This document shows, piece by piece, positions 8,074 through 17,692 of a stretch of 47,123 bases of DNA. A program made the position numbers and the translations under genes. Positions within the stretch are counted from its first letter, which is position 1. Each line of letters starts with the position of its first letter. The stretch is taken from contig JAICSO010000029.1 in NCBI GenBank assembly GCA_025936825.1, positions 1 through 47,123 on the forward strand. The letters run 5' to 3'. This DNA is from Terriglobales bacterium. GTDB taxonomy: Bacteria; Acidobacteriota; Terriglobia; Terriglobales; Acidobacteriaceae. The notes beneath the pieces are model-generated. The model saw only the letters and a program-made list of their open reading frames with translations, was not told where the DNA came from and did no database searches.

Positions 8074-8167
8074 GCCGTCCCTCCGGGACTAGGCCCCAAT
8101 TTTCATACTCAACCCAGGACGGAAGTCCTGGGAAGGTCAGCAAATTGCGATCAAGTGCCGTAGGCAC
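8074..8167. repeat. Cluster of short hairpins of the GGAA-loop palindrome family
   Basis: Three palindromes lie within 100 bp after glnD: gtccctccgggac (8077-8089), an 8-bp stem with ggaa loop at 8113-8132 (arms cccaggac / gtcctggg) followed by aagg, and gtgccgtaggcac (8155-8167). The first is the exact reverse complement of 16948-16960 inside moaA. The second matches 16906-16929 in moaA except for paired changes in the stem. This is a dispersed repeat family separate from the gagc/agct word-repeats. Confidence 0.75.
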
Positions 8168-8250
8168 GGCCGAATGACCGACATCCCCAGCAAAGTGAGC
8201 TAGCAGCTAGAAGCTTGTCCTCTGCATCCAATCCCGGTTCAGGAGGAGTC

Positions 8251-15243: not shown

Positions 15244-16044
15244 ATGACCAAGACACATTTTCTTGTTCTCAGCCTCGCGATGTTGATAGGAGTTGCGATG
15301 GCGCAACAGCAGCCTGCGCAAACACCCGCCTCCCCTGGCGAACCGGTCACCGCGACAGTTCCGCCTACCGGGTTTGCAGGCCTGGACCACTACCGCGCAT
15401 CGCGCGCCAACGTATACTTCAATGATTTCGGAGAACTGGCCCGCTATCGCGCAGCGGATGCCGCGTTGCCGCCACCCGCCGCCGGAGAGAATCGCGTCGT
15501 CTTTTTCGGCGACTCCATTACTGATATGTGGAAGCTTGACGAATCATTTCCCGGCAAGCCATACGTCAATCGTGGAATTGGCGGCCAGACGACTTCGCAG
15601 ATGCTGGTTCGGTTCCGCCAGGACGTGCTTAATCTGCAGCCGAAGATTGTGGTGATTCTTGCGGGGACGAACGACATAGCAGGCAACAGTGGCCCAATTG
15701 CGAATGAAGACATCGAAGCGAACTATTCCGACTTTGCCGAGCTCGCCAAAGCGCACAACATTCGCCTGATCTTTTCGTCGGTGTTGCCGGTGAACAATTA
15801 CACCGAGCGATCGAAGGATTTCTTTGCACAGCGCCCCATGAGCCGCATCCTTGAGTTGAACAAATGGCTGAAAGACTACTGCGAGAAGAACCACCTGATT
15901 TATCTCGACTACTTCAGCGCTCTCGTGGACGACAAGGGCATGTTGAAGCGCGACCTCGCCGACGACGGGCTGCATCCCAACAACGCGGGATTTGCGATCA
16001 TGGCGCCGCTGGCAGAGAAGGCGATTGGAAAGGCGCTCAAGTAA
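15244..16044 (+). CDS. Secreted SGNH/GDSL hydrolase
   Basis: This is an exported esterase/acetylhydrolase-type enzyme. The signal peptide covers residues 1-20 (FLVLSLAMLIGVAMA), followed by a Pro/Thr/Gln-rich linker. SGNH blocks are present: nucleophile Ser91 in FFGDSITD, Gly in NRGIGGQTT, Asn142 in AGTNDIAG, and Asp241/His244 in DDGLHPNN. The length is 266 residues. The start follows gaagggag at the end of a short repeat. Members act on acylated polysaccharides, peptidoglycan or lipids; the substrate cannot be told from the sequence. Confidence 0.93.
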   Translation: MTKTHFLVLSLAMLIGVAMAQQQPAQTPASPGEPVTATVPPTGFAGLDHYRASRANVYFNDFGELARYRAADAALPPPAAGENRVVFFGDSITDMWKLDESFPGKPYVNRGIGGQTTSQMLVRFRQDVLNLQPKIVVILAGTNDIAGNSGPIANEDIEANYSDFAELAKAHNIRLIFSSVLPVNNYTERSKDFFAQRPMSRILELNKWLKDYCEKNHLIYLDYFSALVDDKGMLKRDLADDGLHPNNAGFAIMAPLAEKAIGKALK

Positions 16045-16447
16045 GCACTCAGCAGTCAGCATTCAGCCGTCCTAAGGACGGGAATTGTCGGATAACGGCA
16101 CTCACCACAGCATATAATTAGATTGAGTTTCCGACCGCCTTGGCCTTCGGGAATACCCATGGCTGTGGCGGCGAGGAGTGATCCTTTTTCGCGAACTTTG
16201 CGATCTTTGCGGTTAGCTCTGAGAGTCTTAACCGCAAAGGACACGAAGGGCGCAAAGACCTCTCCGAGGGTACAGGTGGAAACGCCTGTGCCTCCCGTGC
16301 TTGGAAAGGAAACGGCTGCCGGGGTAGTTCCCGTCTCTCGTTTTTTCCTTTCAAAAGCACTCAGTAATCAGCACTCCGCATTCAGCCACTGGAGCTTCGA
16401 TCTTCGCTCCAGCTTTGAAGGGCTGATTGCGGATTGCTGACTGCTGA
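16045..16447. repeat. Repeat-filled spacer upstream of moaA
   Basis: No gene is visible in these 403 bp. It holds cagtcagcattcag words at 16049-16067 and a ccgtcctaaggacgg palindrome (16067-16081). A ctttgcggtta...taaccgcaaag hairpin (16205-16239) is followed by ggacacgaaggg, and an acagg-ggaaa-cctgt hairpin lies at 16272-16289. The last 100 bp form an inverted pair of catt-cag words (16350-16387 and 16421-16447), closed by an inner ctggagc/gctccag stem. The right arm ends on the moaA start codon. Three repeat types are therefore stacked in one spacer. Confidence 0.65.
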
Positions 16448-17692
16448 ATGCTTCTTACCGACAAATTCGGCCGCGCCATTACCGATCTGCGCATCTCGAT
16501 CACAGACCGCTGTAACTACAAGTGTGTCTATTGCCGCACGGGGAATGAGGGCGCATTTTACGGAGAGTTGCCTTTCCCTGACTACCTGCGGATGGCGCGC
16601 ATTCTCGTTTCACTGGGAATCCGAAAAATTCGTCTGACGGGTGGAGAGCCACTGCTGCGGAAGGGGATCGTGGATTTTGTTCGGGAGCTGCGCGAGCTTG
16701 AACCTCAGGGGCTAAAGCCCCAGTTCCAGGAGGCTGATTCCGGCACGGCTGAAGCCGTACCCTCCCGAAGTAAACAAGATCGAACCGTGGAAGCCCCCTT
16801 TTCCCGAGCGGAAATCGGCACAACTGAACGCGCGCTGTCCCGAGGGGAAGATCGTTCAGCTGAAAACGTTCCTTCCGTTAGCTCCGCAGGAGCGGCCCAG
16901 CTTAGCCCAGCGCGGAAGCGCTGGGAAGGCGGCCGTCCCCGAACGGAGTCCCGGAGGGACGACAGAAACGACGAACTCGATATCGCGATCACCACGAACG
17001 GCCACCTCCTCGCCGACATGGCGCAGCCGCTCAAAGACGCCGGCCTGAACCGCATCACCGTCAGCATGGATGCGGTCGACCCTGACCGATTTGCGCGGAT
17101 CACTCGTGTGCCCGGCGGCTTCGATCATGTGCTGGGAGGAATCCGTGCCGCGCGCCGCGCTGGACTTTGGCCTTTGAAGGTCAATTGCGTCCTCATGCGC
17201 GGATTCAATGAGGACCAGATCATCCCGTTTGGCATGTTCGCCCGCGAGGAAGGGGTGATCGTGCGCTTCATCGAGTTCATGCCGCTGGAGGAAGACCGCG
17301 TGTGGTCGCCGGCGACGGTGGTGACGCTCGATGAAATCCTGAGTCGCATGGCCGAGTACCGGCCTCTGGTCGAAATCCCCCGCGCTCGCAGCGAGACAGC
17401 GCGCCGTTATCGCTTTGACGATGGCGTTGGCGAAATCGGAATCATCGCGCCCGTGTCCCATCCTTTCTGCGGCCACTGCAGCCGGATCCGCATCACCTCG
17501 GACGGCAAAATTCGCACCTGCCTATTCTCGGTGTGGGACCACGATTTGCACGAGTTAATGCGTCGCGGAGCCGCGGACGATGACTTAGTTCAATTCATTC
17601 GCGACGTGATCACCAGGAAGGAAGAGCGCCACCACATCGGCGAGCCGGATTTCGTGCCCGCGTCGCGAACCATGGTTCACATCGGGGGATAA
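16448..17692 (+). CDS. moaA: GTP 3',8-cyclase (molybdenum cofactor step 1) with an internal repeat-encoded insertion
   Basis: This radical-SAM enzyme converts GTP to 3',8-cyclo-GTP in molybdopterin synthesis. The N-terminal cluster motif is CNYKCVYC (residues about 22-29). TGGEPLLR follows, then ITTNGHLL and the SMDAVDPDRFARIT region. The C-terminal cluster ligands are in CGHCSRIRITSDGKIRTC, and the protein ends in Gly-Gly. It has 414 residues against the usual 325-340: residues about 85-174 are an extra hydrophilic, Arg/Ser/Glu-rich stretch between FVRELREL and LDIAITTNG. That stretch is encoded by palindromic repeats (separate entry). All catalytic motifs lie outside it, so the enzyme is probably active with a surface loop. 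The ATG at 16448 has no good ribosome site. Confidence 0.92.
   Translation: MLLTDKFGRAITDLRISITDRCNYKCVYCRTGNEGAFYGELPFPDYLRMARILVSLGIRKIRLTGGEPLLRKGIVDFVRELRELEPQGLKPQFQEADSGTAEAVPSRSKQDRTVEAPFSRAEIGTTERALSRGEDRSAENVPSVSSAGAAQLSPARKRWEGGRPRTESRRDDRNDELDIAITTNGHLLADMAQPLKDAGLNRITVSMDAVDPDRFARITRVPGGFDHVLGGIRAARRAGLWPLKVNCVLMRGFNEDQIIPFGMFAREEGVIVRFIEFMPLEEDRVWSPATVVTLDEILSRMAEYRPLVEIPRARSETARRYRFDDGVGEIGIIAPVSHPFCGHCSRIRITSDGKIRTCLFSVWDHDLHELMRRGAADDDLVQFIRDVITRKEERHHIGEPDFVPASRTMVHIGG
16701..16972. repeat. In-frame palindromic repeat cluster inside moaA
   Basis: About 270 bp of successive small hairpins interrupt moaA: ggggctaaagcccc (16708-16721), acggctgaagccgt (16745-16758), gctccgcaggagc (16881-16893), an 8-bp stem with ggaa loop (16906-16925, arms cccagcgc / gcgctggg) and gtcccggagggac (16948-16960). 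No stop codon is created and the reading frame is kept. Two units match the spacer cluster at 8074-8167, one of them exactly in inverted orientation. Confidence 0.8.

Follow-up and report, generated by a model that had tools for sequence, protein, structure and literature searches.

In-frame palindromic repeats in moaA of a Terriglobales bacterium: two families of probable mobile elements and their candidate Y1 transposases

The moaA gene of a soil bacterium of the Terriglobales (GenBank assembly GCA_025936825.1) raises the question of how a core metabolic enzyme comes to carry a run of palindromic repeats that is open in its reading frame, and of what kind of DNA these repeats are. The gene lies in a stretch of 47,123 nucleotides (contig JAICSO010000029.1, contig C58 of the genome), which was analysed as a whole and is referred to as the window. 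The first-pass annotation had regarded the run as palindromic repeats that were placed in frame and tolerated as a loop of MoaA. This reading is supported as right in kind, and the two repeat families, the Rfam identity of one of them, their pairing with transposase genes and the further genes that were hit go beyond it. We consider it very probable that two palindromic mobile elements of the REP/TIR-like kind are stacked in the insert, having landed in a MoaA loop that tolerates insertions and having grown there.

The insert in moaA and its repeat units

The features of the window concerned are:
16448 to 17692, plus strand: moaA, GTP 3',8-cyclase, 414 aa, insert-bearing (open reading frame; TIGR02666; Pfam Radical_SAM and Mob_synth_C)
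16701 to 16972, plus strand: in-frame insert derived from repeats, about residues 86-173, with predicted disorder (alignment with relatives; AlphaFold model)
16702 to 16768, plus strand: family A unit, consisting of hairpin GGGGCTAAAGCCCC, a linker and hairpin GGCACGGCTGAAGCCGTACC (model R1, 80 bits, E 3.4e-24, match 16701-16769)
16769 to 16879, plus strand: middle stretch, by eye two degenerate pieces of the second A hairpin (GTTERALS and RSAENVPS beside GTAEAVPS)
16880 to 16963, plus strand: family B unit, three hairpins (model R2, 87.6 bits, E 4e-19)
16880 to 16925, minus strand: RF01687 Acido-Lenti-1 within the B unit, antisense to moaA (51.5 bits, gathering score 37, E 2.2e-10)
16948 to 16960, plus strand: 13-nt palindrome, exact inverted copy of 8077-8089 (pattern search)
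8074 to 8170, both strands, overlapping: intergenic B element (R2, 52.1 bits at 8098-8170 on the plus strand and 35.1 bits at 8074-8146 on the minus strand)

According to the list of open reading frames, moaA runs through its 414 codons without a stop; its product scored 335.7 bits against TIGR02666 (cut-off 284.05), and both Pfam domains were matched. Among the four moaA matches in the genome (6.54 Mb, 99.67% complete) it is the single full-length gene, the other three being repeat DNA elsewhere in two cases and a partial radical-SAM match in one. The closest named relatives by MoaA were 'Candidatus Sulfotelmatobacter' and other Acidobacteriota, nearly all of them MAGs, and the genomes that were compared in this work were likewise mostly MAGs. 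The insert adds about 85 residues, and the GGEP-to-TTNG distance is 117 compared with at most 32 in 40 of 79 MoaA sequences; with the frame open, the claim that palindromic repeats stand in frame in moaA was borne out. The RNA fold of the extra stretch had a z of -2.6. Moreover, the parts of moaA that flank the insert are under purifying selection, as amino acid differences between this gene and six others were 0.12-0.16 and synonymous mismatches were 0.51-0.54.

An AlphaFold2 model of the protein was based on 29 sequences, and the best PDB match of its core was MoaA 1tv7 (TMt 0.81). Segment 89-173 was modelled as coil with a pLDDT below 50; the mean pLDDT was 69.9 and several short core segments were also low, so only the contrast between loop and core was used. 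In the model, the insert is placed between helix 74-82 and strand 178-183. The prediction is thus of a MoaA core that bears a disordered loop. In barrels of this kind, loops leading from a helix to a strand are not on the side of the active face.

Used as a DNA query on its own genome, the insert gave 45 matches including itself, which fell in two families. Both were aligned and built into covariance models, R1 for family A and R2 for family B; the moaA copies were among the model-building sequences, so independent evidence comes from the other copies. Family A has two hairpins and a length of about 67 nt, family B has three hairpins and a length of about 84 nt, and compensatory changes were present in both alignments. 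At E <= 0.01, the genome held at least 107 A matches (150 of 3520 candidates scored) and at least 129 B matches (150 of 2053 candidates scored). The first 46 nt of B, read on the minus strand, correspond to RF01687 (Acido-Lenti-1) above the gathering score, and the family A unit had no Rfam family match at E <= 1. A GTAG/GTGG foot is absent from the consensus of A and that of B; in some single B copies, GTAG is found in the loop of a hairpin or follows the middle one.

The moaA insert is a mosaic of families A and B and a middle stretch that resembles degenerate A by eye and in which R1 had no match at E <= 1. When the insert was described as a palindromic repeat cluster, the repeats were correctly recognised; they do not form one cluster type, since two different families and the middle stretch are present. 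The intergenic cluster at 8074, which had been said to match the moaA units, does so as a family B element on both strands. Additionally, the exact 13-nt inverted copy proved real (8077-8089 on the minus strand and 16948-16960 on the plus strand), with two matches at no more than one mismatch compared with 0.08 expected.

Other repeats were observed upstream. The moaA start codon (16448) is part of a third repeat, GCTGACTGCTGAATGCT, one copy of which is at 16436-16452, with others at 16043-16067 and 16356-16386; at up to three mismatches this repeat had eight matches in the window, some of them overlapping, compared with 0.21 expected. A 28-nt inverted pair (75% complementary) at 16188-16256 is another intergenic palindrome.

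Outside moaA, the repeats are mostly found between genes. Genes were called with a simple purpose-written codon-based gene finder, and on four contigs picked by size (1.12 Mb, coding fraction 0.818), 27 of 31 A units and 30 of 32 B units were intergenic, while 3 of 31 and 1 of 32, respectively, were inside genes. In a wider set, which combined size-picked contigs, the window and stretches chosen for holding hits, 14 of 92 A units and 3 of 67 B units were inside genes; one of the in-gene B cases, at 16 codons from a called start, could be due to a wrongly placed start. Genes that contain A are moaA, pheT, rsmB, murC, dusB (in its tail), folC, ispE, bshB1, an agmatine-deiminase-like gene and the gene of a TPR/CHAT protein, and B was found in a GT4 glycosyltransferase gene. 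Family A is present in antisense in murC of G000, G001 and G002. It is also present in pheT of G000, G002, G004 and G007, as judged by the match position within the gene. The other murC and pheT loci that were compared had no A match, save murC of G004, which was rejected as an A-bearing gene since its A matches are upstream of the gene. The proposed parallel to the Rickettsia palindromic elements was upheld, as repeats are in frame in several unrelated genes.

Two further observations concern these genes. In the TPR/CHAT-domain protein (L187:233-2548), three tandem A units with a 108-bp period correspond to a 36-residue protein repeat of apparent mobile element origin. At G003:C34:3427-3724, a second N-terminal fragment of pheT (92% identity) runs into an A unit, and pheT of that genome itself is on C497.

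The same loop in related MoaA proteins

In an alignment of 30 MoaA proteins (our own and 29 others), long inserts were present in G000 and G003, a single A unit in G002 and G004, and a different insert in G013; the loop of G003 holds two A units in tandem. The alignment with relatives that the first-pass annotation had proposed thus agreed with an insertion, as 25 of the 29 relatives are without a long insert (five of these have 3-12 extra residues). A larger comparison covered 81 MoaA genes (our own and 80 loci), 79 of which had a resolvable loop, with L294 and L305 dropped. Using nhmmer, family A was detected in this loop in 20 of the 79 genes (a regular expression on the proteins had detected 13 genes only), and in 19 of them it is forward and at the same codon. 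In L263 the A unit is reversed and stands further along the loop, and in L271 there was a weak A match (E 0.089). The loop was short in 55 of the 79 genes, and in four it held a long insert without an A match, as is seen in L264, L267 and L296. Family B was matched by only one of the 79 rows, L001.

On a tree of the 79 MoaA sequences from which the loop had been removed, at least 13 changes are required to explain the distribution of A, and starred branches force at least five of them; this count cannot tell gain from loss, and the bootstrap of the tree was unsettled, with 33 of 76 inner branches open. The patchy distribution points to repeated gain and loss of A in one loop. By eye, the loops of L251, L249 and L252 contain other repeat-like pieces, in frame, nested in or next to A. 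The MoaA loop may be a landing place for several kinds of repeats.

The relatives also allowed conservation of the DNA to be compared with that of the protein. In the 19 forward cases, synonymous mismatch was 0.160 in 13 arm codon columns compared with 0.518 in 122 flank columns, and none of 5000 resamples was as low; the second arm was readable in nine of the 19. In the MoaA rows, 91.3% of the cells of the A hairpin pairs were paired and five pairs had changed on both sides (0 of 500 shuffles), and on further pair types, one of five measures, the shuffles were not exceeded (202 of 500). As the A-bearing rows were picked by a DNA model, both the arm and the pairing tests are biased towards conserved arms and pairing. 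The evidence from L257, L258 and L251 is less open to this bias: in the first two, one more nucleotide in the hairpin loop leaves the palindrome intact and shifts the amino acid reading, and in L251 a further 27-nt in-frame insertion is placed inside an A hairpin. Among eight sequences with linkers of the same length, the linker residues differed at 80%; in L265 and L266, which are near relatives, the linkers can be aligned. At the level of the sequences, the hairpin arms look conserved as DNA, and the linkers appear to drift. Protein-level conservation of the loop among relatives had been named as what would speak for a normal domain; some relatives do share A at the same codon, but their linkers differ to the extent given and the arm codons have fewer synonymous differences than the gene flanks. 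The insert as a conserved protein domain was rejected on the linker difference of 0.80, the 55 short loops among 79 and the shifted reading in L257 and L258.

Repeat families beside Y1 transposase genes

In the genome, eight Y1_Tnp matches were found in seven genes, three of which are between B units. Y1_Tnp was present in 29 of 37 genomes, and loci were taken for about 30 of the matches listed, mostly the best one per genome. A scan with R2 gave 43 B hits in 107 kb of 35 Y1 loci (two of them counted twice, as L331 and L332 overlap) compared with 2 in 103 kb of 29 MoaA loci, and the hits at the Y1 loci were mostly arranged one per side of the gene and in opposite orientation. Among the Rfam models, there were 29 matches above gathering in 20 of the Y1 loci, all of which were to RF01687 (four are repeated, as L244 overlaps L329).

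One Y1 locus, L353, was bracketed by A and not by B, and relatives of its protein were found in 28 of 61 genomes at E <= 1e-10. A scan with R1 of the 30 loci obtained with the clade-A query, 98 kb in total, gave 89 A hits. The controls, 13 B-type Y1 loci together with 17 MoaA loci and 100 kb in total, gave three, two of which were weak hits in the clade-B locus L363. B hits in the same 30 loci were only two, both weak and both in the clade-A locus L376, over or beside its A units; four of the 30 (L388-L391) are outside clade A and are not bracketed by inverted A units. By hand count, 23 of 26 clade-A loci had A units in inverted order on either side of the gene, and 13 of 16 clade-B genes had B units so arranged. 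Among the clade-A loci, L379 has an extra, oppositely oriented unit closer to the gene, the contig end truncates the left unit of L381, and the right unit of L393 is incomplete. The two-sided arrangement was missing at L371, L385 and L387 in clade A and at L343, L346 and L358 in clade B.

A tree of the Y1 proteins, which was built by a quick method from 58 proteins of 65 loci, separated the two sets. It left out L353, which duplicates L364, the pair L331 and L332, which cover a single gene in two frames, and L358, L377, L379 and L389, in which no HUH motif was found. Clade A comprised 24 rows, 21 of them A-flanked, with a support of 99, and clade B comprised 14 rows, 12 of them B-flanked, with a support of 100; no gene of either clade was bracketed by the element of the other. 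The signature Y---Q--HH was present in all 14 clade-B proteins and in none of the 26 clade-A proteins. In clade A, a regular expression found the Y-x-x-x-N-P motif in 23 of 26 proteins, and HUH was likewise present in 23 of 26.

Within the genus, G005 and G006 had no A matches and no clade-A Y1, and G001-G004 had 23-82 A matches and one to six Y1 matches, with 82 A matches and six clade-A Y1 matches in G004. Although the A matches in our own genome number at least 107, it had no clade-A Y1 at E <= 1e-10, and the A units there may therefore be relics. Outside the genus, G029, G051 and G055 had 10, 87 and 4 A matches, respectively, and no clade-A Y1 at E <= 1e-10. Other Y1 clades in our own genome (L330, L333 and L334) were observed to have no A or B close by.

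Relatives of the clade-B protein were found in two plasmid records and in none of the viral contigs. A Persicobacter plasmid (Bacteroidota, L426) encodes a clade-B-like Y1 with 38% identity, which has an Acido-Lenti-1-like match on one side (35.7 bits, below the cut-off of 37) and a 43-nt inverted copy of it (81%) on the other; the second of the two plasmids outside the phylum, from Bernardetia, had no element at its Y1. At 640-1330 of L426, a three-hairpin element of B-like layout was seen to flank the Y1 gene.

As judged from sequence comparison, which shows both families to be dispersed genome-wide, each of them flanks, as inverted copies, the single-tyrosine HUH (Y1) transposase genes of one particular clade, which are TnpA_REP/RAYT-like for A and subclass-1.2-like for B. 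This pairing is new here.

Explanations of the insert and comparison with known systems

Most likely, families A and B are mobile elements of the REP/TIR-like kind, and what is catalogued as Acido-Lenti-1 RNA is probably not an sRNA gene but a DNA element linked to a transposase. If so, Y1 transposases would have moved the hairpin units as single-stranded DNA, and the MoaA loop, which leads from an alpha helix to a beta strand at a distance from the catalytic motifs, would have been a landing site in which those insertions survived that were in frame, stop-free and in a loop. Later drift would have scrambled the linkers, with the hairpins persisting or being renewed, and the loop would be translated and disordered with the enzyme still working. 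In the family, the same moaA codon may have been occupied, lost or refilled several times. With less assurance, we lean towards the joint proposal that, across phyla, Acido-Lenti-1 is the DNA element at the termini of subclass-1.2-type Y1 transposases, and that it lands, together with the undescribed pair A, repeatedly and independently in frame in the MoaA loop and in other core genes (murC and pheT).

It could be argued that the loop is an ordinary, lineage-specific part of MoaA that is under selection and merely happens to be rich in inverted repeats, because the A-encoded PQGLKP...GTAEAVP recurs at the same place in many relatives and the insert is in frame in every MoaA that was read. This is very unlikely, as the linker residues differ at 80% and the arms are more conserved at synonymous sites than the flanks (0.160 compared with 0.518), the palindrome is intact in L257 and L258 although their reading is shifted, L263 has a reversed unit, and the same DNA is mostly between genes elsewhere and the loop is predicted to be disordered. 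We also regard as improbable that the B part functions as an Acido-Lenti-1 sRNA or as an antisense regulator of moaA that was later read as protein on the other strand. RF01687 does score above gathering on the strand opposite to moaA and the hairpins show compensatory changes, but such changes are equally expected for DNA hairpins that are read by HUH enzymes. Moreover, there are at least 129 B matches in one genome, B flanks Y1 genes in inverted order, and a conserved regulation of moaA by B is not indicated because only L001 of the 79 MoaA rows matches B. An assembly artefact or a pseudogene is hardly credible: the data are derived from MAGs and the repeat content is high, but the frame is open, the flanks are under purifying selection and the same kind of insert is found in independent assemblies.

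More weight has to be given to a single ancestral insertion of A in moaA that was followed by many losses instead of repeated insertion at one codon, which we hold to be possible but not the likelier course. The identical start codon position in the 19 forward cases and the alignable linkers of the near relatives L265 and L266 would fit it well. The patchy distribution with its at least 13 changes, at least five of them forced, argues against it, as do the tandem A units of G003, the reversed unit of L263 and the long inserts without an A match in L264, L267 and L296. Precise excision would make the single-insertion and the repeated-insertion readings both partly true.

If the joint proposal on Acido-Lenti-1 and pair A is true, REP insertion driven by transposases would repeatedly supply Acidobacteriota with new disordered protein segments, and the hairpins would be kept as DNA in coding sequence. 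One enzyme loop in 79 genes would make REP insertion into a protein traceable across species. The reassignment of Acido-Lenti-1 would change how RF01687 annotations are read. Additionally, two pairs of element and transposase, neither of which has a GTAG consensus foot, would be available for testing hairpin choice by HUH enzymes, and one pair would involve a subclass that was described as generally lacking end structures.

These findings resemble the REP-RAYT and TIR-TIRYT systems, in which, according to the accessible part of the work by Di Nocera (2013, PMC3733652), short dispersed palindromes, some of them in frame in housekeeping genes, flank tyrosine transposase genes. Families A and B are likewise dispersed, mostly intergenic and partly in frame, and their inverted copies flank Y1 genes; they differ in that their consensus sequences are without a GTAG or CGTC foot and their units have two and three hairpins. 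Since intragenic REPs were already published there for several bacteria, the in-frame repeat in moaA stands and its being unusual does not fully. In the same portion of the text, three TIRYT genes with TIRs, one TIR being a repeat family, are reported for K. versatilis (Acidobacteria), and neither moaA nor Acido-Lenti-1 is named; the K. versatilis TIR may be one of families A and B. The likeness to the Rickettsia palindromic elements, which are described as in-frame palindromic inserts in unrelated genes that are tolerated as peptide (PMC3733652, accessible part), is one of description. They differ from the present case in phylum, in that a likely cognate transposase is identifiable here and in that A and B units occur in sense and antisense. 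For Sulfotelmatobacter and palindromic repeats, nothing was found in the open-licence literature.

Acido-Lenti-1 RNA (RF01687) was listed as a structured-RNA candidate by Weinberg (2010, PMC2864571, available part), and little is known about it according to the part seen of a 2026 paper (PMC13298647). No link of Acido-Lenti-1 to a transposase was found in the available portions of the open-licence literature, which is no proof of absence. The core of B matches RF01687 above the gathering score, but unlike the element as listed it belongs to a longer unit with three hairpins, copies of which flank Y1 transposase genes. In terms of the classification by Quentin (2018, PMC6006769), of which the accessible part was used, clade A is like class 2 TnpA_Y1 (TnpA_REP/RAYT), an assignment made by motif, as its Y-x-x-x-N-P motif resembles those tabulated. 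Clade B shares the signature Y---Q--HH with subclass 1.2, which is described there as mostly found in Cyanobacteria and Bacteroidetes and generally without typical IS200 end structures, whereas clade B in Acidobacteriota has flanking elements. Class 3 TnpA_Y1 of Acidobacteria and Planctomycetes was reported in the same source to have atypical flanking structures, with about 600 copies in Solibacter usitatus; with Y---Q--HH instead of the tabulated motif YV[VI][AENY]EQ and foot CnGA, clade B is set apart from it by description.
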